In this document: positions 2,783 through 30,668 of the stretch, piece after piece
Position numbering within the stretch: the first letter of the stretch is position 1
How the letters are laid out: each line of letters opens with the position of its first letter
DNA from: Candidatus Woesearchaeota archaeon
Lineage (GTDB): Archaea > Nanobdellota > Nanobdellia > Woesearchaeales > GW2011-AR9
DNA length: 36,531 bases
Direction of reading: 5' to 3'
Assembly (NCBI GenBank): GCA_016214025.1
Contig: JACRPH010000002.1
Span: 1 to 36,531, forward strand
Notes under the pieces: model-generated
Told to the model about the DNA's origin: nothing
Seen by the model: only the letters and a program-made list of their open reading frames with translations
Database searches by the model: none
Translations under genes and position numbers: made by a program

Positions 2783-5700
2783 CTATTCAACCTTTCTCTT
2801 CCCGCCTTTCATCAGCACGGCAAAAGCCAGGATGATGGCGATGAACCCCAATATTACCAATGCGCCTAACATCAGAGTGTATTCGGGCGTATCTCGGAAA
2901 GCTACTTTAGTGGTAGTCTGAGTTACTGCTTGAGCCTGCTCAGCTTGCTTCTTAGCCAATAATTGCTGCTGCAACTGCTCCTGCATTTGTTTAGCTACAT
3001 CTTCAGTGCTGTAGGACGGCTGAGGCTGTGTAGCAGTAGAGGTGGTTAAGCATTCTTTTACTTCAACATTTACGCTGTCAGTCTCTTCCAGCTTTCCATC
3101 TAGGTATAGTTCAACGATTACCGGATAAGTTCCAGCAGCTGCGCCTTCCAAGTTCAGGTTGAATGAAGCGTCGTAAGTGTTATCGCTTCCAGAGTAATCA
3201 TCTAACTTGATGTTATCTCTAATTAGCTCCATTCCTAAAGCAGTGTTCTTGACTTTCACTTGTACATCATCTTCATCGCTCTTGCCGATGTTCTTTAATT
3301 CAACCTCTAAGCTAGTCTGGCGATTGCATTCAAGTATGGTAGAGCTTGAGGTTACTTCGTTTAGGAGTACTTTATGTTTCTGGCGGTCAACTTTTACTTT
3401 CACGGTAGTAAGTGTTTCATGAGTGCTATCATCATCAGCATCTCCTTCTACTAAAATCTCTACGGTGTATTCGTCTTCGTCAACATTTTCAGTGCTTAAG
3501 TCAATCTTAACTTTAACCGTATCATCATCTCCCTCATCCAAGTCAAACGAATCGGACTCTTCATCAATATCATCGCCGTCGACATCAAGTATAGTTACAG
3601 TAACGGTAACGTCTTCCATATCTTCAGTGTAGTCGTTCTTAACTTCAACCTCAAACTCGTTTTCTTTCTCTAACGACAGCTCACCGTTCTTTTTGCCATT
3701 CACTTCCACCGATTCAATGGTTAAAGCACTCTTGGGATTCAAGTTAATGGGAGCAGTTTCAGTGTCTTCAGTGCTGCTTACTTTCACGCTGCCAATGGAA
3801 TGGCTACCCGAGGATTCTCCTGTAGGTATGGTTAGAGTTAAAATCACAGGTATTGATTGTTGTGGGTCAAGTGTAGTTGAGGATAGCACAATCGGATTTG
3901 GTTGGATATTGTATTTACTATCCACCCCCACAAATTCTACTTTTAAGTTAGTTAGCGGATTAAGGCTGCCACTATTTTTTATCGTAAATGTGGTGTTTAC
4001 AGTAGTGTTCCAATTTACGCTGTCAAAGTTTATTGCAGAGATTTCTATCGCGGCAGGAACGTTTTCAACTACTACATAAGTAGAGAAGCTGTTTACGTCA
4101 AAAGTTACCGTTCCGCCGGAAATTGTAGGTTTGATGGTAGTAATCTCAGTAGCTTGACTCTTGTCTGAAGTGAACTTAGCAGTTTTCTTAATTACCGGAT
4201 TGGTTAAGCCAGTGTTGTATAAAGTTATAGTTGCCGGTTGGTTTATTCCTGCCGCTTTGCTAGAATCAATCGCTGCTAACTTGTCTTCAAGCTTTACTAC
4301 ATCTGCAAGTTTAGCTACACTGGATAGGTCTACGGCATTCTTGAATTTAATCTCACCGTAGCTGTTTTTTAAGGTTAAGTCTTTTACCGAGTTTATATTA
4401 GTAATGGAGGTTTCATCTACACCAAATTGGGCTAAGTCTAAAGGCTTATCGGTAGTAGTAATGATCCAAGTCCAAGTTTTAATATTACCAGTATCATCGA
4501 CAACAACATTACCCTTTTTATCTTTAAGCGTTAGTTCAACTTCAAACTCGCCCACTTTTCCATTTGCATTGAATGGATAAGTAAAACACTTCCCGGGAGT
4601 TGCTTTTTGTGGTATAGTCTTGCCTTTAGTACTGTCGTACCAGTCAGCTTCGCTAATATCTGTTCCTGGGCATAGCTCAGCATCTTTGAATTTAGTAATA
4701 GGTACTAGTTCATTTTTTAGTACGGGTCCGATTGTATCTACATCAGATATGGGGGTTCCCCCGGTGTTCCAGTCGGTATCATCAGTTAAATCTTCAGTTA
4801 CTTTTACAATTATTTTCTTAGTGTCGCTCAGCCCAGCAGGATCGGTCACCGTCAGCTCAAACTCTTCGCTACCATGCCAGTCTTTTTCAGCGCTGAAAAC
4901 TAATTTTTCTCCATCTTTCAATACCATTACTTTCTTATTGCCTTCGGTGGAGAATGATAGTTCAGATAGCTCATTATCAACATCTTTTACCCAGTCACTT
5001 ATCTTTATACTTGCGGTTGTATCCTCGCTAAAAGTTACCTGAAGAGGCACATTTTTAAACTCTGGCGCGTCATTCTTACCGGTTACGGTTATGGTGAATG
5101 TTTCTTTGTTTTCGTCAGCTTTTTCTTTGTTGATGGTTAGTTCAATTTCACTGAATAGGTTTTCTCCGTCATTTAAGCTTGAGGCAACGACATTTTCATT
5201 TTTTGTAGGATCTGCACCAAAAGGCCAGTCGCAGTGTAAAATACCCCCATACACTTGACCCTTTTTGTTTAGGTTTTGATCTCCGCAAATTATCAATGTC
5301 TCATTTGACTGCTTGGTTACAGTGAAAGTGAAATCATTAGTTTTATCTGTATCGGTCATCTTGTCTTTATCTTCTTTCCCAACTAACAGCTTTATTAAGT
5401 CAATCTCTAATCCAGTATTCTCCTCAGTTAATTCACTAACTGAGATGTTTAAGCAGCCGTGTTTAGTTAATTTTATAGTTTCGCTGTCAGATTTTTCTTT
5501 TCCATCGTAAGTGTAGGTAAACGTTACGCTAATGGTGTGCTCTCCCACAGACATTTCTGTAGTGTTTATGCTAATTGGATGCATGTCTCCCTGACTACCA
5601 TTCAGTAACTGAATTCCGGTCAATGATTGATCATCGGTTACAGGATTGCCATTTTCTTTAACTGAAACACTGATGTCATCAATTACGCTCTTCCCAGAAT

Positions 5701-8047
5701 TAATGTACGATGCCATTAACTTTAATTGTGGATTGCAGTAAGTCTCGTTTACTTCTTTTCCATCTTTTTTCTCAAATTCAAGCTTGGTTATTTTTAATTC
5801 ACCGGTTTCTTTACCGATATTTAGGTTGAAGTCAAAAGCACTATCGTTAACTTCTTTCCAGTTTACATCGGTGGCATCCACTTTTACAGTAAAGTGTGAG
5901 GCTTTTGTATCTACATTTCCCGGTAGTTTCTGCTTTGTCGTGAACGTCTGTGAATTGCTCGGCGTTAGTAATATGTTCTCAAAAGTATCGCCTTTTAGTT
6001 GAATTCCAGATTTGTCGTTATCCACAAAGTTTATAGTTAAGTCTTTTATGGTGCTCTTCCAATTATTCTTCACAGTTACTTCTATATCAAACTCTTCTTC
6101 TGGCTTTATTCCGGTTGAGGTTTCTCCATCTGCTACAGCTACTCCTTTAACTTTAACCTCAACCACTTTAATAGTCTCGAGCACTTTCACTTTTATTTGC
6201 CCTTTATTATCTGTAAACTTGTCTGCATCTAACGCGTTTTTAGATTTAATGTTGATATCAATGGTTGAAGCACCGGATACATCATTTTTTGGGGTACACT
6301 CTATCTCTCCTGCATTTTGAGTAGGTCTACAATCAACCAGTTCAGGATTAGACTGTTTGTCAATACTAAACACTATGTTCTCTTTCTCTCCCGAAGAGAT
6401 TTCTGGGTTTAGGTATTTGGTTAGATTTACTACTTTACCTGCTTCTCCTTCAAATAATTCGAGAACTGGATCTTCTGGTATAAAGCATTTGTTTTTGGTA
6501 ATAGTTGTGGATGTGTTCACAAAATCTTTGTCGCCATCAGCACCAACAATCTCTAATACCACATCTAATTTGTTCTCACCTATGTTTAATTCAGAAGTAT
6601 TGAATTCTAAACTAATAGGTTCACTGTTAGATGGATCGATTGATACTTTGTTACTTGTTAATTTTTTGTCTCCCGTTTTGACATCTATGTATACATCTAA
6701 CTTTTGAATTCCCAAGTTCTCCACATCAACGTTCATCTTTAACCATTGGTCACAGTAAGTTTTAGTCTTATTATTTTCAAAGTTAATCTTATAGCTAAAA
6801 TCGGAGATAAACTTCCCAATATCTATGGAAAAGTCAAATAGGTCTTCTTTTCCAAAAAAAACGAATTTATTACTCCATGCTTTTAAATAAAGAGTGTATT
6901 CTCCACCATTCCCATTAAAATTAGGCACTTCTCTTTCGAAAGTTATTAGTACCTCTTCTCCTGGTTTTATGGAGTTTATTACGTAAGGACACACAGCGGT
7001 TTCTGGCGAGCACTTGAATGAAAATTGCTTATTTTCTTCATATAAGTCAACTTTAACGTTGGTTATTTCTTCGTCGCCGTTATTTTTTACTGTGGCTTGT
7101 ATAGTGAATTTGTTTCCTGGTTTAAGCGCTATCCCCTCGACTTTCTTGTTTTCTATCACAACAAACTCTTTACCTTCTTTTTTGAGGGTAATGTTGGTTA
7201 CATCGAGGTAAGGCTTTACGGTTAAGTTGAAGCTTTTTTCAACTTCTTTTATTCCATCAGTTACTTTAACTGTAATGTCTTTATATTCCCCCAGAGCCGA
7301 AGTTTTATAAGTAATCTTAGCCGAATAATCGTCTATCTTTTCTAGCTCCATTCCAGCAGGTGCATTAAGTAAATCTATGGAAAATACTAACTTATCTTTA
7401 TCTAAATCCTCTGCATTAATTGTGAATTCCCATTCAATGCCCTCAACTGCAATCTCATTTTCGGGGAATGTAGTAAATTTTGGGACATCATTGTTGGATT
7501 TTCCAGGTGTTCCCTTATCTCCTGCTCCATAGGTTGAAGTAGCTTTCTTCCAATTGTCAGCAACATCGTTACCTAAAGAAGGATCTTTTAATTCCATGGA
7601 TACGCCGTCACCAAAATTGAAGGCGGTGGCAGTAGTGTACTTAACGTTGTCTTGCTCTACTCCGGTATCATCTAAAATGATTATTGCATCATTACTGTTA
7701 GCTAAACTGAAATTGCTATATTGATAATCACACTTTAGTCCACCATTAACATTAATATCTTTATTTCTGCATAATAATAAGTATTTTTCTGGGAGTAGTA
7801 TTAATTCCCCACCATTGTTTATTTTGTGAGTATTGCTTCCTTCATCTTTAATAGTCCATCCATCTATATTCACATTATTTTCCTTATCAGTATTATATAA
7901 TTCAAAGTATTCTCCTAGAGTATCATCTACTGCATTGGGGTTAGGCATCACCTCATTAATCACTACTGCTCCCCACGCTGCTTTAGCTGTAAGCAGTACT
8001 AATAGCAGCATCGCCATCACGGTAAAGATTTGGTTCATTCGTTTCAT
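2783..8047 (-). CDS. Giant anchored surface protein: lamin-tail, cadherin-like and Ig-like repeats
   Basis: 1754 residues. A signal peptide (residues 1-26) is followed by a lamin-tail domain (about 27-165; starts VVINEVMPNP, ends near DNVKY). Next come many beta-sandwich modules. Cadherin/Ig-like segments lie near 185-280 and 1010-1110, and CARDB/NEW3-like segments with a repeated KPGxxFxIxxxVKNN pattern lie near 290-800 and later. A very acidic stretch near residue 1500 (DVDGDDIDEESD) may bind calcium. A Gln-rich coiled segment precedes a C-terminal TM helix and basic tail GGKRKVE. The start has a GAGGTAA ribosome site. It is the last of four surface genes on this strand. A role in the cell envelope or in attachment is inferred from its architecture. 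Confidence 0.85.
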   Translation of the reverse strand: MKRMNQIFTVMAMLLLVLLTAKAAWGAVVINEVMPNPNAVDDTLGEYFELYNTDKENNVNIDGWTIKDEGSNTHKINNGGELILLPEKYLLLCRNKDINVNGGLKCDYQYSNFSLANSNDAIIILDDTGVEQDNVKYTTATAFNFGDGVSMELKDPSLGNDVADNWKKATSTYGAGDKGTPGKSNNDVPKFTTFPENEIAVEGIEWEFTINAEDLDKDKLVFSIDLLNAPAGMELEKIDDYSAKITYKTSALGEYKDITVKVTDGIKEVEKSFNLTVKPYLDVTNITLKKEGKEFVVIENKKVEGIALKPGNKFTIQATVKNNGDEEITNVKVDLYEENKQFSFKCSPETAVCPYVINSIKPGEEVLITFEREVPNFNGNGGEYTLYLKAWSNKFVFFGKEDLFDFSIDIGKFISDFSYKINFENNKTKTYCDQWLKMNVDVENLGIQKLDVYIDVKTGDKKLTSNKVSIDPSNSEPISLEFNTSELNIGENKLDVVLEIVGADGDKDFVNTSTTITKNKCFIPEDPVLELFEGEAGKVVNLTKYLNPEISSGEKENIVFSIDKQSNPELVDCRPTQNAGEIECTPKNDVSGASTIDINIKSKNALDADKFTDNKGQIKVKVLETIKVVEVKVKGVAVADGETSTGIKPEEEFDIEVTVKNNWKSTIKDLTINFVDNDKSGIQLKGDTFENILLTPSNSQTFTTKQKLPGNVDTKASHFTVKVDATDVNWKEVNDSAFDFNLNIGKETGELKITKLEFEKKDGKEVNETYCNPQLKLMASYINSGKSVIDDISVSVKENGNPVTDDQSLTGIQLLNGSQGDMHPISINTTEMSVGEHTISVTFTYTYDGKEKSDSETIKLTKHGCLNISVSELTEENTGLEIDLIKLLVGKEDKDKMTDTDKTNDFTFTVTKQSNETLIICGDQNLNKKGQVYGGILHCDWPFGADPTKNENVVASSLNDGENLFSEIELTINKEKADENKETFTITVTGKNDAPEFKNVPLQVTFSEDTTASIKISDWVKDVDNELSELSFSTEGNKKVMVLKDGEKLVFSAEKDWHGSEEFELTVTDPAGLSDTKKIIVKVTEDLTDDTDWNTGGTPISDVDTIGPVLKNELVPITKFKDAELCPGTDISEADWYDSTKGKTIPQKATPGKCFTYPFNANGKVGEFEVELTLKDKKGNVVVDDTGNIKTWTWIITTTDKPLDLAQFGVDETSITNINSVKDLTLKNSYGEIKFKNAVDLSSVAKLADVVKLEDKLAAIDSSKAAGINQPATITLYNTGLTNPVIKKTAKFTSDKSQATEITTIKPTISGGTVTFDVNSFSTYVVVENVPAAIEISAINFDSVNWNTTVNTTFTIKNSGSLNPLTNLKVEFVGVDSKYNIQPNPIVLSSTTLDPQQSIPVILTLTIPTGESSGSHSIGSVKVSSTEDTETAPINLNPKSALTIESVEVNGKKNGELSLEKENEFEVEVKNDYTEDMEDVTVTVTILDVDGDDIDEESDSFDLDEGDDDTVKVKIDLSTENVDEDEYTVEILVEGDADDDSTHETLTTVKVKVDRQKHKVLLNEVTSSSTILECNRQTSLEVELKNIGKSDEDDVQVKVKNTALGMELIRDNIKLDDYSGSDNTYDASFNLNLEGAAAGTYPVIVELYLDGKLEETDSVNVEVKECLTTSTATQPQPSYSTEDVAKQMQEQLQQQLLAKKQAEQAQAVTQTTTKVAFRDTPEYTLMLGALVILGFIAIILAFAVLMKGGKRKVE

Positions 8048-8074: not shown

Positions 8075-10654
8075 TTATTCTATCTTGTCTAGCACACAGC
8101 GGAAGCCAATTGTGTCCTCTCCCTTTACCGGGTCTTTGATTTGTTCATTGTATACTAGCACATACTCTGCTTCTTCTTTCCAATTTCCGCCTTTAACTAT
8201 CGCGAACACTCCGCCGTAAGGAGTAGAAGTCCATTCAGAAATATTTCCACCCATATCGTAAATGCCAGCTCCGAAGGTACTTTTATCTAAAGGATACGAG
8301 CCTACTTCTCCCGGTTTATCACTGCAATATTTATAATTAGTAAGGTTGCAGCTTGGTTCTAATGTTCCCCAAGGATAAATGTTCTCAGCTTTTCCTCCTT
8401 TAGCCGCTACTTCCCATTCATCGGCAGTAGGAAGTCTTCCGCCAGCATACTTACAGTACTCTTCTGCCTGGGCTTGGATTAAGTTTGTGACCGGAGAATT
8501 ACTTCCACCGTCTGTAGTACCAGTGCATTTATCGTTATCTATACATTTTTGGTATTGCTTTTGGGTTACCTCAAACTTGGAGATGTAAAATCCAGCGGTA
8601 ACTACATCATGCAGTGGGTTTCCAACATATTTGCATTTAGAGTCGGAGGAATACTCACAGCCAGCACTATAACTTCCGGCTGGCACAAATACAAAGTGAT
8701 TATCGTCCACAATTCCGTTACAATCTTTATCTATTCCATCGGGAAACTTAGTGGATTCTTCTGCTCCGATTGGAACCAGCTGGTACACTCCACCAATCAA
8801 ATTACAGGTAAAGCCGGGGGCATCGGGATGAACTTCACACGCTTTTCCCACACCTGCTTCACATTTATCGGGATCAGCGCAATCTCCATCGTCTACCCAT
8901 ATTCCTACTTCATTGCACTTCTGCTTCTGGGTGCCGTTTTTGTTAAACCCACACCCTGCTATAACCTGCTCTAAAACAACTCCTTTTCCACTTAAATATA
9001 GTTTACCGTCACAATTATTATCGATCGTATCGCAATTTTCTTCAGCTAGTGGATTTATCTTGGGATCAGCGTCATTGCAGTCATTATTAGTTAATACATA
9101 ACCATCTGAACATTTTCCTACCAAGAATATTTTTTCTGATTCACTTTTATTCCCAAATCCATCCTGATCAGCATCTTTATAACAATTTTTGTATTCAAAA
9201 TCTTCGTCAATGTAACCATTACAGTTGTTGTCAATACCATCAACTAATTTTTCTATGGCTGCCGGGTTTACTTCGGGGTTGGTATCATCACAATCATTTT
9301 TGTCAGTAACATAACCATCTGGCGCTTTGCAGCTCTTTTTCTCATCTGTTTTTAAGCCATAACCATCTCCATCTCCATCTTTGAAATAACTGAATGTGGG
9401 GAACCCTTCATCAGTCGTTCCATCGCAGTTATTATCAAGAAGATCGCAGATTTCATCTGCACCGGGTTTAATTTTAGCGTTACTGTCATCACAATCAGTG
9501 TAATCCAGAACATATCCTAATGGAGCACTACAAGCAATAGTTGATGCATTTAAATTACCAAAATTATCGCCATCAACGTCTTCATAAAAGACAAAGTTTG
9601 CTAATCCCTCATCGGTAATTCCATCACAGTTATTGTCCTTCCCGTCGCAAACTTCAGTGGAGGGAAGTGTTGCAGTACAATTGACATAAACTCCATCAAC
9701 ACAAGTCTCAATTCCAGTTCCGCATGCGGTGGAACAAACTTTAATATCTCCCACCTTGCATTCGTCAGGATCAACGCAAACTGTTTTATCTACAGTACTT
9801 CCATCGACACAGTATGTAGTCTTAGTCCCGTTGTTGTTAAGTCCACACTTGACCTCTTGTTCTAATCCATTATCAACAATCGTATCACAGTCATCATCAA
9901 TAGCATTGCATATTTCAGTGGCATCTGGATTAATCTTAGCATCGGTATCGTTACAGTCTCCGTCTTGAGTAATATAATTAAGCATTTTAACTCCACTGGA
10001 ATATACCGAGCCATCAACTGCAGTACAGCCAACTATTGACTGGTTTAAATCGCCAAACCCATCTTTATCATTATCCAGATAGAACGTACTCATAGGCACC
10101 CCTTCGTCCACAAAAGTATTGCAATTGTTGTCTTTTCCATCGCACAATTCAGTAATTGCAGGAGTAACTTCTGGTGTGGTAATTTCCCATGCTCCATTTA
10201 CACAGGATTTAATTCCTGCAGTGCATGAGCCGACACCTGAAGTTCCGGTCAACCCGGTATAATAAGATTGATTCAGAAGCCCCTCATCAGTTTGCCCATC
10301 ACAATTATCATCAACGGCATTGCATAACTCTATTGCTCCCGGATAAATTAGTTTATTGTTGTCATTACAGTCTCCGTCTTTGCCGTAAGGAGCATAGCAT
10401 TCTTCATCAGCTACCATTCCATAATATCCGTCTTTATCCTGGTCAAGGCATGATTTAATTTGGTAAGCATTAGTTTCTCCTCCATCTTCAGCAACATCTA
10501 CACTCACTTCTTTCTTTGCATCAACACTTGTATCAACTGCGTCTTGCTGTGCATCAGTTCTACTAGAACTAGAACTTGAGCTGAACTCTTCTCCACAGCC
10601 AGCATAAATTAATCCGGCGCCTAACAAACTTAATAACGTATTTCTTGCTTTCAT
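8075..10654 (-). CDS. Secreted lipoprotein with MopE-like metal-binding repeats and an FGE-like C-terminal domain
   Basis: 859 residues from the ATG at 10654, which has GAGGT upstream; an in-frame ATG at 10717 would add an unlikely 21-residue extension. The lipobox is IYAGC, followed by a Ser run. About eight repeats follow the pattern DCND..IxPxAxExCxxxDxNCDGxxDEG, often with YxDxDxDGFG spacers. These match the putative metal-binding (MopE-type) motif abundant in myxobacterial surface proteins. Residues about 654-859 form an FGE/SUMF1-like domain (FVFVPAGSY, GGRLPTADEWE, GNISEW, KGGNW, GFRCV). The paired catalytic cysteines of true formylglycine-generating enzymes are not visible, so a binding or structural role is more likely than enzymatic activity. 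Bacterial ancestry by transfer is plausible. Confidence 0.85.
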   Translation of the reverse strand: MKARNTLLSLLGAGLIYAGCGEEFSSSSSSSRTDAQQDAVDTSVDAKKEVSVDVAEDGGETNAYQIKSCLDQDKDGYYGMVADEECYAPYGKDGDCNDNNKLIYPGAIELCNAVDDNCDGQTDEGLLNQSYYTGLTGTSGVGSCTAGIKSCVNGAWEITTPEVTPAITELCDGKDNNCNTFVDEGVPMSTFYLDNDKDGFGDLNQSIVGCTAVDGSVYSSGVKMLNYITQDGDCNDTDAKINPDATEICNAIDDDCDTIVDNGLEQEVKCGLNNNGTKTTYCVDGSTVDKTVCVDPDECKVGDIKVCSTACGTGIETCVDGVYVNCTATLPSTEVCDGKDNNCDGITDEGLANFVFYEDVDGDNFGNLNASTIACSAPLGYVLDYTDCDDSNAKIKPGADEICDLLDNNCDGTTDEGFPTFSYFKDGDGDGYGLKTDEKKSCKAPDGYVTDKNDCDDTNPEVNPAAIEKLVDGIDNNCNGYIDEDFEYKNCYKDADQDGFGNKSESEKIFLVGKCSDGYVLTNNDCNDADPKINPLAEENCDTIDNNCDGKLYLSGKGVVLEQVIAGCGFNKNGTQKQKCNEVGIWVDDGDCADPDKCEAGVGKACEVHPDAPGFTCNLIGGVYQLVPIGAEESTKFPDGIDKDCNGIVDDNHFVFVPAGSYSAGCEYSSDSKCKYVGNPLHDVVTAGFYISKFEVTQKQYQKCIDNDKCTGTTDGGSNSPVTNLIQAQAEEYCKYAGGRLPTADEWEVAAKGGKAENIYPWGTLEPSCNLTNYKYCSDKPGEVGSYPLDKSTFGAGIYDMGGNISEWTSTPYGGVFAIVKGGNWKEEAEYVLVYNEQIKDPVKGEDTIGFRCVLDKIE

Positions 10655-10744
10655 TTTCGTTTTACCTCGCTTAATTTTTTTTAGTTTAATCACAGAACAT
10701 CTATACCCGCACCTCACCTCAGACTATGATTTTATCCCACGATT

Positions 10745-25426: not shown

Positions 25427-26446
25427 ATGAATATCTTTCCAGTTAGTAAAGAGTATACTTCTTTTTTGCGTGATATAAAGAAAAGGATCTTAGATGCCCA
25501 GTATTCGGCATTAAAATCAGTTAACAAAGAATTGATAAACCTTTATTGGGATATCGGAAAGAGGATTGTGGAAACCCAGCGGGAATTTGGCTGGGGGAAA
25601 TCCGTAGTTGAAAACTTATCTTTAGATTTACAGAAAGAGTTTGCAGGGATAAAAGGGTTTTCTGTACAAAACTTATGGTTTATGCGACAATTTTACACTC
25701 ATTATATTGAAAATACAAAACTCCAACCATTGGTTAGAGAAATCAGTTGGGTTAAAAATATAATCATTTTGAGCAAATGCAAAGATGACTTAGAGCGAGA
25801 ATTCTATCTCAAAATGACTTCCAAGTATGGTTGGACAAAGAATGTGCTCATTCATCAGATTGACAACCGGTCTTACGAAAAGTTCCTATTGAATCAGACT
25901 AATTTTGACCAAGCGATTCCAGAAAAATACCGGCCGCAGGCGAAACTGGCGGTAAAAGACGAATATACCTTTGATTTTTTGGAGTTGGGAGAGGAACACT
26001 CAGAAAAAGAGCTGGAAAATGCCCTCATTAATAGAATCAAAGGGTTTCTTAACGAATTAGGTAATTATTTTTGCTTTGTCGGAAGCCAGTATAAGCTCGA
26101 GATAGATGGTGAAGAATATTTCATTGATTTAGTTTTATATCACCGAAAATTAAAGTGCCTTACGGCAGTTGAATTAAAGATTGGAAAATTTAAGCCTGAA
26201 TTTGCGGGGAAAATGCAGTTCTATCTTTCTGTGTTAGACGATAAAGTAAAGCTAGATGGTGAGAATCCCTCCATTGGGATAATAATTTGCAAAGAAAAGA
26301 GCAGGACTACGGTTGAGTATGCACTGAAAGATGTTTCAAAACCGATAGGCATCTCTACTTACAAAATAACCTCTACCTTGCCCAAGAACCTTATGAAATA
26401 TTTGCCTTCCAAAGAAGATATTGAGAGACGCTTGGGGAAAGTATAA
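25427..26446 (+). CDS. YhcG/DUF1016-family PDDEXK nuclease
   Basis: 339 residues, full length for the family. The N-terminal DUF1016 helical region (about 10-150) has LINLYWDIGKRI and FSVQNLWFMRQFY. The C-terminal YhcG nuclease domain (about 170-320) has a PDDEXK-like core, YFIDLVLYHRKL then AVELKIGKFKPEFAGKMQFYL. Members are common next to restriction-modification and other defence genes in bacteria and often move between genomes; here no partner is beside it. Mobility or defence is an inference. GGTGA lies just before the ATG. The tandem hairpins upstream may belong to its control region. Confidence 0.93.
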   Translation: MNIFPVSKEYTSFLRDIKKRILDAQYSALKSVNKELINLYWDIGKRIVETQREFGWGKSVVENLSLDLQKEFAGIKGFSVQNLWFMRQFYTHYIENTKLQPLVREISWVKNIIILSKCKDDLEREFYLKMTSKYGWTKNVLIHQIDNRSYEKFLLNQTNFDQAIPEKYRPQAKLAVKDEYTFDFLELGEEHSEKELENALINRIKGFLNELGNYFCFVGSQYKLEIDGEEYFIDLVLYHRKLKCLTAVELKIGKFKPEFAGKMQFYLSVLDDKVKLDGENPSIGIIICKEKSRTTVEYALKDVSKPIGISTYKITSTLPKNLMKYLPSKEDIERRLGKV

Positions 26447-26476
26447 TGATAAAACCTGTTTTTTAAACCATAAACC

Positions 26477-27043
26477 ATGACCCCCATTCCACCATCATTC
26501 TTCAACCGTGATACCGTTACCGTAGCCAGAGAGCTGCTGGGTAAGGTGCTCGAAGTGAATGGGATTAAAGCGCGGATTGTGGAAACAGAAGCTTATGGCA
26601 AAGATCCGGCTTCACATGCTTTTACCCGTACAGAGAGAAGCGCGTTGATGTTTGACACCTACGGTCACGTTTATGTCTATCTGATTTACGGAATGCATTA
26701 CTGCATCAATTTTACTACAGAAAAAGTGGGCGAACCGGGGGCGGTATTAATTCGGGCAGTAGAGCCGTTGAACAAAGTTGAAGAGTTGAAGAAGCGGAGG
26801 AAAACTAATAGCGTAGCTAATTTATGTTCCGGCCCGGGAAAATTATGTTCAGCGTTAGGGATTGATAAAACTCATAACGGGTTGAAGCTGGGAGAAGAAA
26901 TAAAAGTTTATGATGACGGATTTAAAGTAGGTAAGATTGGAACGAGTTCACGCATTGGGATTAAAGATGCTCTGGAGCTGCAGTGGAGATTCTTTGTGGA
27001 AGGGAATGAGTTTGTAAGTAAAATTAAATTGTCTGATGGATAA
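26477..27043 (+). CDS. 3-methyladenine DNA glycosylase, AAG/MPG family
   Basis: 188 residues, normal for the family. Landmarks: FFNRDTVTVARELLGK, RIVETEAYG with the catalytic Glu (residue 38) and intercalating Tyr (residue 40), DPASHAF, MFDTYGHVYVYLIYGMHYC, and LCSGPGKLCSALGI. It removes alkylated purines such as 3-methyladenine and hypoxanthine as the first step of base excision repair. Stand-alone gene, 30 nt after the YhcG gene; GTATAATGATAAAA about 30 nt upstream may be its TATA element. Confidence 0.95.
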   Translation: MTPIPPSFFNRDTVTVARELLGKVLEVNGIKARIVETEAYGKDPASHAFTRTERSALMFDTYGHVYVYLIYGMHYCINFTTEKVGEPGAVLIRAVEPLNKVEELKKRRKTNSVANLCSGPGKLCSALGIDKTHNGLKLGEEIKVYDDGFKVGKIGTSSRIGIKDALELQWRFFVEGNEFVSKIKLSDG

Positions 27044-27059
27044 CTTTAAAATAGAAAAG

Positions 27060-27070
27060 TTTATATATTA
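27060..27070 (+). promoter_or_regulatory. TATA box for the wHTH/nucleotidyltransferase pair
   Basis: TTTATATATTA is centred 25 nt before the ATG at 27090; consensus-like archaeal TATA, leaderless spacing. Confidence 0.6.
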
Positions 27071-27089
27071 CCTATGTTAGATAACCAGT

Positions 27090-27701
27090 ATGCAAGAAGA
27101 TGAACTGCTTAGAACTTTGCAAGGGCTGCATACAGTAGAAACTGTAGCTGAGGCTCTGAACCTAGGCAGTCAGTCAGCCTTAAATCTTCTCAGCAGGCTA
27201 AAAAAAGAAGGCTATGTCACAGTCAGCGGTGGGGGGAAGCAAAAACGATTATATAAAATAACCATTACTATCCAAAGGCCGAGAAGTCAGGGAATGTTTG
27301 ATATTCTGAATAAATATTCTCCGATGAAATTAATGCCATGGTTCGACCACCAGGTGCACGGCCCTTACGGTGCGGAAGAGGCGCTGATTGATGCGATTGA
27401 GACCAGAAGTTTTCGGGCTATCCTCGCCAGCCTGCGATTGTTTAATCATATCACTGACTGGCCTAAGCTTTATCGTTTGGCGAAAGAGAAGGACTGCTGG
27501 CAGAAAGTAGGCGCATTGTACGACGTAGCCAGAATGTTCTTTAGAGTGAGAAAGATGCCGAATAGATATGCCAAAATAGGAAAATTTAATAGGTGGGTAA
27601 CTTTTACTCGGCTTCGGAAGAAAAACTTTTTACCTATAGCCTCAAAATGGAAAGTGTATCTTCCTTTTAACCCTAAAGATGTGGAAGAAATAAGATGCTA
27701 A
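27090..27701 (+). CDS. Winged-helix protein, probable antitoxin-like partner
   Basis: 203 residues. The N-terminal 65 residues form a wHTH: ELLRTLQGLHTVETVAEAL, then SALNLLSRLKKEGYVTVSGGG, then RLYKITI. The rest is basic and aromatic (KLMPWFDHQVHGPYG, RMFFRVRKM). It overlaps the following nucleotidyltransferase gene by 7 nt. A transcriptional wHTH gene feeding a nucleotidyltransferase resembles AbiEi/AbiEii-type and MenA/MenT-type modules. The homology of this antitoxin candidate to AbiEi was not proven. Confidence 0.7.
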   Translation: MQEDELLRTLQGLHTVETVAEALNLGSQSALNLLSRLKKEGYVTVSGGGKQKRLYKITITIQRPRSQGMFDILNKYSPMKLMPWFDHQVHGPYGAEEALIDAIETRSFRAILASLRLFNHITDWPKLYRLAKEKDCWQKVGALYDVARMFFRVRKMPNRYAKIGKFNRWVTFTRLRKKNFLPIASKWKVYLPFNPKDVEEIRC

Positions 27702-28354
27702 CCCATAAGGACCAACTGGACTTATTTACTTTAGTTGCTAAGAAATTAACCCAAGACGTAGAGTGCTATGCTTTTGGCGGTAATGCCATGATGTTTTACG
27801 GATATAAAGAGGAAACTAAAGATGTGGACTTACTGTTTGAAGAGGATGATTCACGTAAAGAATTTATCCGAGCCATTTCTTCTTTAGGATATGCTGAGAC
27901 CAGCCCCATTGCTATTTATATCCCCGAGAAACTTAGAGATCTCCATCGCCCGTTGATGTATAAAAGAGGAGAGAGCAGGTTTGATTTATTTGTTAAAAAA
28001 ATATTCAAGACTCTTCTTAGTCCCAATATGAAAGAGAATGTTTTTGCCGTGCACGAGTTTAAAGAAAAATACAATCTAAAGATTAAAGTTCTGAGAAAAG
28101 AATATTTAATCATTCTAAAAGCAGTAACCAGCAGGGACAAAGATTTTGAGGATATTCTTACCATTCTTCAGAAAAACCAAGATTTTGACTGGCGGTACTT
28201 AATTGATGAAGTGCTATGGCAGTATAAGCATGGCGATTCTTGGGTACTACTGGATATGGAGAGGGTAATGCAGGAACTGAAAAAGTATGTGTTTATTGAG
28301 GAGAAATATTTTAAGCAACTGTATAATGCAAGGAAGAGACATAACCAAAAGTAG
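27695..28354 (+). CDS. Nucleotidyltransferase-fold protein, probable toxin-like partner
   Basis: 219 residues. The core is YAFGGNAMMFYGYKEETKDVDLLFE: GG followed by the acidic DVDLL of a minimal nucleotidyltransferase, as in AbiEii/DUF6036-type proteins. Later parts include FDLFVKKIF (possible third acidic position), LIILKAVTSRDKDFEDI (the KxxSxRxKDxxDI-type segment common in these toxins) and a basic end. Its start overlaps the wHTH gene, so expression is coupled. Such enzymes in related systems modify tRNA or other RNA to stop growth; the target here is unknown. Confidence 0.78.
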   Translation: MLTHKDQLDLFTLVAKKLTQDVECYAFGGNAMMFYGYKEETKDVDLLFEEDDSRKEFIRAISSLGYAETSPIAIYIPEKLRDLHRPLMYKRGESRFDLFVKKIFKTLLSPNMKENVFAVHEFKEKYNLKIKVLRKEYLIILKAVTSRDKDFEDILTILQKNQDFDWRYLIDEVLWQYKHGDSWVLLDMERVMQELKKYVFIEEKYFKQLYNARKRHNQK

Positions 28355-28366
28355 AAACCGCAACCT

Positions 28367-29464
28367 CTACGCCCCCATCTTAACCCCTTTACGCGCTTCC
28401 TGCACCAGCTCCGTAAAATCCTCTTCCAGCCCTCTTTTCTGCACCTGCTGCAACGCTTTAGAGAACCACGGCTTGAGGATGGACCTAGTTCCATTTATGG
28501 CTTTTCTTAAATCGTCTTTAGAAATCTTTCTCCTCTTACCGGTATGCAGGCTTTCCTTTAATGGTATTTCAGTGGCTAATTCACATACAGCTTTAAGGTC
28601 CGCTCCGGAAAACCCGGCGGTTAATTTCGCCAGCTCGTCATAATTAATTTCTTCCGTAGGGCGATGGGACAAATTGATTTGCAGGATATCTCTTCGGGCT
28701 TCTTCATCTGGAGGAGGAATAAACAAAGTTGTTCCAAATCTTCCTTCACGGCGTAAAGCAGGATCAATAGACCAGGGCTCATTAGTGGCAGCCAGCAATA
28801 AGAGCTGCTGTTCTTTGGAATCCATCCCGTCCATTTCTGTAAGCAGTTGGGCTACCGCACTTTTGTCATGGGCAGGAGCATCACTTCTATCTGAGCCCAA
28901 TGAATCAAATTCGTCAAAGAATATTACTGTAGGTTGAGTTTCTCGAGCTTGGGCGAATAATTCAGCGATATTTTTCTCGGTTTCTCCTACATATTTGCTT
29001 TTTAAGTCTGAACTTTTTACGTGAATAAAACTAACTCCCGCTTCGTTAGCAGTGGCTTTAGCGATTAAACTCTTTCCGCATCCGGGAGGGCCGTACATTA
29101 ATATCCCTCCGCCGGCTTGTTTGCCATAGTATTGAAAGAGATCGGGATGTTTGAATGGCTCGATTATCTTTAGTTTTATTTCTTCTTTTAATTGTTTCAA
29201 CCCACCGATATGTTCAAAAGTAATTTTGTTTTTAGCGGGAGGAATGAATTTATTGATTTGAGTTTTTTCCTGCAGCTGCTTGGCTTTGAGATAACTTTTT
29301 TGTGCTAATTCTAAGTATTGCGGCTCTTTCTCGGGATGATGAGTAGATGCTTCTACTAAGGCCTGTGCGGCGAGCAGGTAATTTTTAGCTGAATCTTTGG
29401 GATTTACATTTTCTTCTTTCTGGGCTAATTGTACTAAGGTGAATATTTCATTTTCATTACACAT
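28367..29464 (-). CDS. MIT-domain AAA ATPase, Vps4/CdvC-like
   Basis: 365 residues. Residues 1-66 look like an MIT three-helix bundle (KNYLLAAQALVEAS, QYLELAQKSYLKAKQL). A linker leads to an AAA domain: HIGGLKQLKEEI, Walker A GPPGCGKS (125-132), pore loop KYVGET, Walker B VIFFDEFDS (about 180-188), sensor 1 AATNEP, and arginine region RREGRFG (238-244). This is the Vps4/katanin-type layout. Such ATPases remodel ESCRT-III/Cdv polymers. It overlaps the preceding MIT gene by 8 nt. No ESCRT-III gene is in the window, so the substrate is unknown. Confidence 0.87.
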   Translation of the reverse strand: MCNENEIFTLVQLAQKEENVNPKDSAKNYLLAAQALVEASTHHPEKEPQYLELAQKSYLKAKQLQEKTQINKFIPPAKNKITFEHIGGLKQLKEEIKLKIIEPFKHPDLFQYYGKQAGGGILMYGPPGCGKSLIAKATANEAGVSFIHVKSSDLKSKYVGETEKNIAELFAQARETQPTVIFFDEFDSLGSDRSDAPAHDKSAVAQLLTEMDGMDSKEQQLLLLAATNEPWSIDPALRREGRFGTTLFIPPPDEEARRDILQINLSHRPTEEINYDELAKLTAGFSGADLKAVCELATEIPLKESLHTGKRRKISKDDLRKAINGTRSILKPWFSKALQQVQKRGLEEDFTELVQEARKGVKMGA

Positions 29465-29771
29465 GGTTGAGCACCTGTCTGATTTCCTGCAAATAGTTTT
29501 TAGTTTCTGTTGTTGGATTGGATTCTTGCAGGCTTCTTCTGGCTAATTCTGCTTTTGTAAGTTCTACTTGAGGTTCTCCTCTTAGCTTTTGCACCTGCTG
29601 GTAGCATTGCTGGGATTTTTTCAGCCATTGTGATTTTTTTTGCAGTTCATGGTTGAGGAGGTAGATGCTGCATGCTTCTAAGTAATGTGAGATGGCTTGT
29701 GGAGCATTATTTTCCTGAGCGAAGAGGGAAGCTAATTTTTCTTCTCTTTGCGCGTCTTTAATGGAGCACAT
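29457..29771 (-). CDS. Stand-alone MIT-like protein (104 aa)
   Basis: 104 residues. The first 70 residues (LFAQENNAPQAISHYLEA, LQKKSQWLKKSQQCYQQVQ) align by eye with the N-terminal MIT region of the AAA ATPase encoded next, including the YLxA and KSQ..Y positions. The C-terminal helix (KNYLQEIRQVLNHV) is separate. It overlaps the upstream gene by 14 nt and the ATPase by 8 nt, so all three should be made together. It may act as an adaptor or competitor for the ATPase MIT domain. Confidence 0.72.
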   Translation of the reverse strand: MCSIKDAQREEKLASLFAQENNAPQAISHYLEACSIYLLNHELQKKSQWLKKSQQCYQQVQKLRGEPQVELTKAELARRSLQESNPTTETKNYLQEIRQVLNHV

Positions 29772-30267
29772 GCTGCACCTCCATGTTTCCTAATTCAGCT
29801 TGGATTAAGAATGATAATTGGTCGCGATCAATGGGGGAAGGGTTTTGGGTGGTAAATTTTCTATTTGTAGAGGTTTGATGAACAGAATAATCTTGCAACG
29901 GCAAAGCTTGATAGGTTTTTGGTTGAGACCATACTGAAGGCTGCTTAGGTGTATCTTTAGTTGATGATTTTTCTTCTACAATTCTTTTTATAGGCGCTTT
30001 AAAAAATTCCACCGGCGCAGAGAACGATATAGGATTGTTAGTAATTGGGAAATTATACCCATTTACTTTTTGGTCGAAATAGGAAGTATTATAATTCTGG
30101 CTAGGTTTGGTTCGGGAGGAATACTGATTTAGAAAGTTGTAAGAGCCTAAGGTGGTAGTAGCGTAAGCACCTGCTTGTTGGTACAACTGAGCTGTCTGAT
30201 AAGCCATGGTCTGGAAACTAGGGTAAGCTATCCGTGCTAAGGTGTATTGGTGTGGTCTGCATACCAT
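29758..30267 (-). CDS. Disordered Gln/Asn/Tyr-rich protein of the MIT-AAA operon
   Basis: 169 residues, low in charge and hydrophobic core, rich in Tyr, Gln, Asn, Ser and Thr (QTAQLYQQAGAYATTT, NYNTSYFDQKVNGYNF). It looks intrinsically disordered except for a possible C-terminal helix (RDQLSFLIQAELGNMEVQ) that could serve as an MIT-binding peptide. The ATG at 30267 is assumed; a second ATG at residue 21 is possible. CTAAATAAG about 33 nt upstream may be the operon TATA box. No family is recognised. Confidence 0.6.
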   Translation of the reverse strand: MVCRPHQYTLARIAYPSFQTMAYQTAQLYQQAGAYATTTLGSYNFLNQYSSRTKPSQNYNTSYFDQKVNGYNFPITNNPISFSAPVEFFKAPIKRIVEEKSSTKDTPKQPSVWSQPKTYQALPLQDYSVHQTSTNRKFTTQNPSPIDRDQLSFLIQAELGNMEVQHVLH

Positions 30268-30532: not shown

Positions 30533-30645
30533 GCGGGGGTGGGAGAGTGGTCAAATCCGCTACCTTGAGGATGAGGGAAAAGTTTTCCTATCAATGAAAG
30601 GGTAGTCCCTTAGTGGGTTCGCGTGTTCGAATCACGTCCCCCGCA
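30533..30645 (+). tRNA. tRNA-Leu(GAG) with an intron
   Basis: Acceptor GCGGGGG (30533-30539) pairs with CCCCCGC (30638-30644), followed by discriminator A. The D arm is GGA/TCC with GTGG in the loop; the anticodon stem is CTACC/GGTAG. A long variable arm (CCC/GGG) marks class II, and the T arm has TTCGAAT. The anticodon loop begins TTGAGG, giving GAG at 30567-30569 and so Leu, consistent with A73. An intron of about 29 nt (roughly 30571-30599) interrupts after position 37. TTGA/TCAA pairing suggests the central helix of a bulge-helix-bulge, but the 3' bulge is longer than the canonical three bases. CCA is not encoded. Confidence 0.9.
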
Positions 30646-30668
30646 TCATTTACTTTTAGATAAGAATT

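Follow-up and report, generated by a model that had tools for sequence, protein, structure and literature searches.

MIT-AAA motors are the disassembly engine of ESCRT-III. What, then, does such a motor act upon when it is encoded beside a disordered protein and no ESCRT-III gene? The question is raised by three overlapping genes within the 36,531-nucleotide stretch of DNA analyzed here (the window), which belongs to an archaeal genome (G000) of 1.43 Mb and 97% completeness. An initial annotation read these genes as a minimal membrane-remodeling or disaggregation system with a free MIT adaptor. Here we report that a radical-SAM/SPASM gene lies downstream of the ATPase gene in nine genomes from seven families, a new linkage that goes beyond this earlier view and changes the likely biology of the system.

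Organization of the locus

The three open reading frames occupy the interval previously assigned to them, and the lengths noted for their two overlaps are exact (Table 1); all three lie on the minus strand, which had been left unstated. The overlap between P1 and P2 is likely to couple their translation. Compared with the nearest relative, a same-genus genome, dN/dS is 0.135 for P1, 0.065 for P2 and 0.028 for P3, and all three are thus coding genes under purifying selection. Given these low values and the recurrence of the gene order in relatives, the arrangement is not a product of chance. Flanking genes vary among relatives, and no wider conserved neighborhood was found outside close ones.

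Table 1. Positions of the operon genes and their parts in the window
Feature	Position	Strand	Length	Remarks
P1, first operon gene	29758..30267	minus	169 aa	disordered, Q/Y/P-rich
P2, free MIT-like protein	29457..29771	minus	104 aa	
P3, MIT-like/AAA ATPase	28367..29464	minus	365 aa	Walker A, Walker B, pore loop, AAA lid, C-terminal helices
P3 N-terminal MIT-like domain	29258..29464	minus	residues 1-69	AlphaFold2 local pLDDT 75-88; homologous to P2
P1/P2 coding overlap	29758..29771	minus	14 nt	
P2/P3 coding overlap	29457..29464	minus	8 nt	

Several other features of the window deserve mention in their own right. At 2783-8047 (minus) a 1754-aa surface-type protein with Lamin tail, Big_9 and CARDB domains also matches the Nup98-96 autopeptidase S59 above the Pfam cut-off (2.4e-7), which is unexpected in an archaeon, and at 8075-10717 (minus) an 880-aa protein combines seven MopE-type metal-binding repeats with an FGE-sulfatase domain. 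A tRNA-like sequence at 30535-30646 (plus), with GCGGGGG...CCCCCGC acceptor arms and an apparent intron near the anticodon, is left uncalled by ARAGORN and Rfam at default settings.

The ATPase and its N-terminal domain

P3 contains all the motifs that had been read in it, namely Walker A (GPPGCGK), Walker B (VIFFDEFD) and the pore loop KYVGET, and matches PF00004 (4e-42) and AAA_lid_3 (2e-11) in Pfam. The pore loop, a signature of substrate-threading AAA proteins, is kept across the ATPase family. In its AAA domain P3 resembles CdvC no more than it does CDC48 or PAN: the score with NF041006, the equivalog model of CdvC, is 181.5 bits against a cut-off of 650, and the CDC48 and PAN models score higher, at 3e-64 and better. 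No match to the Vps4_C oligomerization domain was found in P3 at E<=1. The proteasome-docking C-terminal HbYX motif is absent from every member of the ATPase family, and coupling to the proteasome was rejected on this ground.

The first ~70 residues of P3 are predicted to form three helices (3-17, 22-42 and 44-71, AlphaFold2). P2, modeled with a pLDDT of 88, would consist of a similar three-helix domain followed by two C-terminal helices, and it aligns with residues 1-69 of P3 (hhalign 97.4%, E 1.2e-11; 98.5%, E 3.6e-15 with the wider family). The middle protein of the operon is therefore homologous to the N-terminus of the ATPase, as had been noticed by eye. In the window's clade both proteins start with an invariant Met-Cys.

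For this domain, sequence profiles are not enough to tell MIT from TPR. The best Pfam MIT match has an E-value of 0.005, short of the cut-off and found in a few members (2); TPR and SNAP models score level with MIT, or better in the case of P2; and PDB sequences searched with a profile of the N-domain yield designed helical proteins and TPRs only. The predicted structure favors MIT. With the P2 model as query, Foldseek places the archaeal Vps4 MIT domains 2w2u and 2v6y on top (target TM 0.74-0.76, rmsd 1.2-1.5 Å, probability 1.00), with E-values of 0.3-0.6, the usual range for a short helical bundle, while TPR structures superpose badly (TM about 0.25-0.3). Of the earlier description of the 104-aa protein as an MIT domain, the fold is supported, and membership in the family is not established by profiles; we use the term MIT-like for a modeled fold with putative family membership.

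Distribution and the conserved core

Within the order, 31 of 353 genomes contain the ATPase family, which also occurs in a few other families of the class; the named relatives that carry the locus are mostly Candidatus Woesearchaeota MAGs. At all loci that their contig covers to the upstream end (about 30, in many families), a P1 gene lies directly upstream of the ATPase gene. In the ATPase tree, P2 is restricted to a single clade, of 13 rows and with support 93/96, that comprises all f1 members and genome G293; G051 also has P2, its ATPase fragment being too short for the tree, and near relatives outside the clade, G101 among them, have P1 and the ATPase only. The tree was referenced to CDC48, PAN and the MIT-AAA pair of genome G462 only, and its deep nodes are weakly supported.

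Because P1 is upstream at all of these loci and P2 occurs in a single clade, the conserved core of the system is P1 plus the ATPase. The free MIT-like protein arose later in that clade, by duplication of the ATPase N-domain, and two genomes (G293, L056/L103; G051, L049) encode it as an in-frame fusion with the ATPase. The trio once put forward as a unit does recur in relatives, but its supposed adaptor is a clade-specific addition.

The disordered partner

We gathered 33 P1 homologues of 119-232 aa, choosing starts at an M-[VSTA]-C motif, several times within a longer ORF. Relative to 310 neighboring proteins they are enriched in Gln (2.1-fold), Tyr (1.8-fold) and Pro (1.7-fold); the first protein of the operon had been described as Q/N/Y-rich and disordered. 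Of the 33, 28 have the N-terminal M-[VSTA]-C, whereas in a background set of 298 proteins one has a motif of this kind within its first 60 residues. No ESCRT-III helical core was found in P1.

In the window, P1 begins with MVCxPHQ and ends in the amphipathic helix RDQLSFLIQAELGNM (residues about 149-163). This C-terminal motif is present in 22 of the 33 P1s, where shuffled sequences average 2.8 and never exceed 8, and the idea that the helical tail might be an MIT ligand has thereby acquired a candidate motif. The likeness to known ligands is loose: hydrophobic residues fall at i, i+4 and i+8, a shifted register compared with the i, i+4 and i+7 of MIM1, and among the 33 proteins a MIM2 core at the C-terminus is absent save in 2. 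The motif is missing in about one third of P1s, chiefly distant ones. Some P1 and P2 proteins also bear His-rich tails, which are very long in genome G029 (e.g., L040:1427-1909, plus).

A radical-SAM/SPASM enzyme in other lineages

In the nine linked genomes (G361, G299, G300, G123, G055, G087, G232, G233 and G246) the radical-SAM gene directly follows the ATPase gene and mostly overlaps it by a few nucleotides. Five of the encoded proteins were compared with Pfam; PF04055 is strong in all five, and SPASM (PF13186) passes its cut-off in three, the other two matches being weak. The nearest NCBIfam models are the mycofactocin, GeoRSP and PqqE maturases, none of them above its cut-off. An identity with viperin was considered and rejected, the PADLOC pVip matches being weaker than those to SPASM maturase models and a SPASM domain being present. 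The link to the cassette is exclusive across the order: with a profile built from the linked copies and matches of at least 280 bits, the subfamily appears in 8 genomes, all of them among the 31 with the ATPase (hypergeometric P = 1.4e-9). Building the profile from linked copies does not force its absence from other genomes.

These findings bring into view a modification cassette, in which P1 would be a large RiPP-like substrate, the radical-SAM/SPASM enzyme its maturase and the MIT-AAA protein a loading or unfolding factor, with the window's clade derived and its enzyme lost. Linkage and exclusivity speak for it, as do the relationship to models of peptide or cofactor maturases, the MSC start of eight of the nine P1s encoded beside the enzyme (some with an extra N-terminal Cys) and the spread of the linked loci over deep branches of the ATPase tree, which is compatible with an ancestral role. 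Yet among the loci that were read on their downstream side at least 18 are without the enzyme, and the best match in the window genome is a distant, unlinked paralogue of 184 bits rather than an equivalent. P1 is also long and without a leader/core layout, no protease or exporter gene lies nearby, no RRE domain was identified, and the deep nodes of the tree are weakly supported. We regard a primary role in modification as rather doubtful. In the window's own clade, which lacks the enzyme, it can have no core role.

Membrane remodeling and ESCRT

The initial annotation favored a minimal ESCRT-like membrane-remodeling machine, its ESCRT-III unrecognized or missing. The MIT-like fold and the single-ring AAA protein are indeed as in Vps4/CdvC, and in three relatives (L044/L045/L046) the gene overlapping that of the ATPase by 4 nt encodes a polytopic NicO/DsbD_2-like membrane protein; outside a few close relatives, however, no membrane gene is linked to the cassette. 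The absence of an ESCRT-III gene from the neighborhood is borne out at about 30 family loci and extends to the whole host genome for CdvB (NF041008), which was undetected at E<=10 while the Sulfolobus control scored above the cut-off. Snf7 was not detected in the host genome either, a weak test in which even the Sulfolobus protein falls below the cut-off of this model. FtsZ, on the other hand, has two matches in the genome, and with CdvB and Snf7 undetected ESCRT-type cell division is unlikely. P1 has nothing of the ESCRT-III helical core, and DPANN archaea are not mentioned in a comprehensive survey of archaeal ESCRT systems (PMC10936438). Membrane remodeling is thus left without direct support, and we consider an ESCRT-like machine of this kind improbable.

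The NicO/DsbD_2-like neighbor and the His-rich tails make a metal connection possible in part of the clade. A broader metal-handling role, drawing also on the conserved N-terminal Cys, was not adopted because it holds only in part of one clade.

A separate locus in G462, a genome of the same class, has two tandem MIT-AAA ATPases with a 202-aa helical protein ahead of them (L141, original minus strand 4009-7150). By eye this protein has the look of ESCRT-III and a layout like that of CHMP1, a likeness left unconfirmed by sequence searches of Pfam and the PDB. The locus is a possible DPANN ESCRT system.

Defense and proteostasis

An accessory anti-virus or conflict module, comparable to the IetAS-type AAA ATPases, would account for the patchy occurrence of the family in the order. 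The PADLOC IetA models score 1e-39, the window neighbors include a YhcG/PDC-S02 nuclease and an AbiEii/DUF2204-like nucleotidyltransferase pair, and a related AAA protein is encoded on a predicted tailed-virus contig. The IetA score, however, is far weaker than those of the generic CDC48 and PAN models, and both the IetA and the viperin likenesses in PADLOC are at the level of the superfamily. There is also no subtilisin partner, no conserved defense gene accompanies the locus among the changing flanks of relatives, and the dN/dS of P3 is 0.03. A function in conflict therefore seems to us quite unlikely. A general proteostasis function, with a PAN- or CDC48-like unfoldase or disaggregase and P1 as its adaptor, would suit the best AAA-domain scores but is very improbable, as the genome already has its own CDC48-like and PAN-like ATPases, the HbYX tail is absent throughout the family and most genomes of the order do without the module although P1 is its invariant partner.

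The genes adjoining the operon (window 25427-28354, plus) comprise the YhcG/DUF1016 nuclease (PADLOC PDC-S02, 5e-146), a methylpurine-DNA glycosylase and an HTH protein paired with the DUF2204/AbiEii-like nucleotidyltransferase, and are possibly defense or toxin-antitoxin genes. The viral AAA protein (L160:5728-6819, on contig IMGVR_UViG_3300035102_000171) has a similar helical N-domain and head-gene-like neighbors and is 48% identical to the window ATPase. A viral origin of the cassette was rejected, as this lone predicted virus contig has neither P1 nor radical SAM.

A proposed client and its unfoldase

Based on these observations, we suggest that the operon is a dedicated client-plus-unfoldase module, in which a Vps4-like unfoldase serves a self-assembling disordered protein, P1, that is modified by a radical-SAM enzyme in some lineages. 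We give this reading a probability of about 0.45. It draws on the adjacency of P1 and the ATPase, the MIT-like fold of P2 and the homology of P2 to the N-domain of P3; the in-frame fusions of these two add a Rosetta-stone link in its favor. The P1 tail motif, the M-[VSTA]-C start, the Q/Y/P enrichment and the conserved threading signature are likewise consistent with it, as are the missing HbYX tail, the two FtsZ matches and the failure to find CdvB. In the known ESCRT system, the MIT domains of Vps4 and Vta1 hold the tails of ESCRT-III clients while the ring threads the client (PMC5413351), which provides a precedent. Counted against it are the loose MIM1 register, the near absence of MIM2, the third of P1s that lack the tail motif, the want of a significant Pfam MIT match and, for the part given to the radical-SAM enzyme, its absence from the clade of the window.

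From the architecture of the proteins we infer the following client role for P1. It may self-assemble, or attach to something, through its conserved N-terminal Cys and its low-complexity body, assembly being suggested by composition only. Its C-terminal amphipathic helix would then be a handle that P3 and P2 grasp with their MIT-like domains. Docking of the P3 N-domain on this tail would be followed by assembly of a single ring, whose KYVGE pore loops could thread P1 through the pore and so dissolve or renew the P1 assembly. In the window's clade, P2 might act as a Vta1/LIP5-like cofactor that adds avidity for the tail, and in other branches the radical-SAM/SPASM enzyme would modify P1 or whatever P1 carries.

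No published description of the cassette was found in a literature search that left subscription papers mostly outside its coverage, and no prior paper among the literature searched joins AAA remodeling with RiPP-like modification. Tentatively, and with less likelihood, the whole may be a DPANN system not described before: a self-assembling disordered protein would be modified by a radical-SAM/SPASM enzyme and unfolded or recycled by a Vps4-like MIT-AAA motor, one clade having lost the enzyme and gained a second MIT domain. Such a cassette points to a machine that would, in the manner of ESCRT, "assemble and pull apart" without any ESCRT-III protein. If this is true, the pairing of an MIT-like AAA protein with a disordered Q/Y-rich protein, with ESCRT-III undetected, would mean that the MIT-AAA logic predates ESCRT or extends beyond it; a cassette of two or three small genes would be a tractable system for studying how an AAA motor dissolves a low-complexity assembly; and the exclusive radical-SAM/SPASM link elsewhere would connect the fields of AAA remodeling and RiPP-like modification.

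Comparison with known systems

Several known systems offer close parallels. With IetAS the cassette shares an AAA protein of the same broad clade, but in the window no IetS, the subtilisin-like protease, is adjacent, and the resemblance to IetA is weaker than that to CDC48 or PAN. Like mycofactocin MftC, PqqE and GeoRSP, nine relatives encode a SPASM-type enzyme together with a small putative substrate protein; unlike them, they include an AAA unfoldase, the putative substrate is disordered and 119-232 aa long, no curated maturase model gives a score above its cut-off, and members of the window's clade have no such enzyme.

Two further parallels are ESCRT-associated proteins. Like Vta1/LIP5, P2 combines a free MIT-like domain with additional C-terminal helices and has an MIT-AAA ATPase as its partner, the two being joined by fusion in two genomes; it differs in being homologous to the ATPase's own N-domain, by duplication, and in its length of 104 aa. 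As in Vps4/CdvC, the ATPase has an N-terminal MIT-like three-helix domain, a single AAA ring and threading pore loops, and its operon partner has a C-terminal helix. The cassette departs from Vps4/CdvC in having no ESCRT-III partner, no Vps4_C match in P3 and an AAA domain no nearer to CdvC than to CDC48 or PAN, as well as in its disordered Q/Y-rich partner and its radical-SAM link in other lineages. With defining features of Vps4/CdvC looked for and not found, we file it neither there nor as an ESCRT system; it is best explained as a variant of Vps4-like remodeling that works as a Vps4 system does, on a client outside ESCRT.
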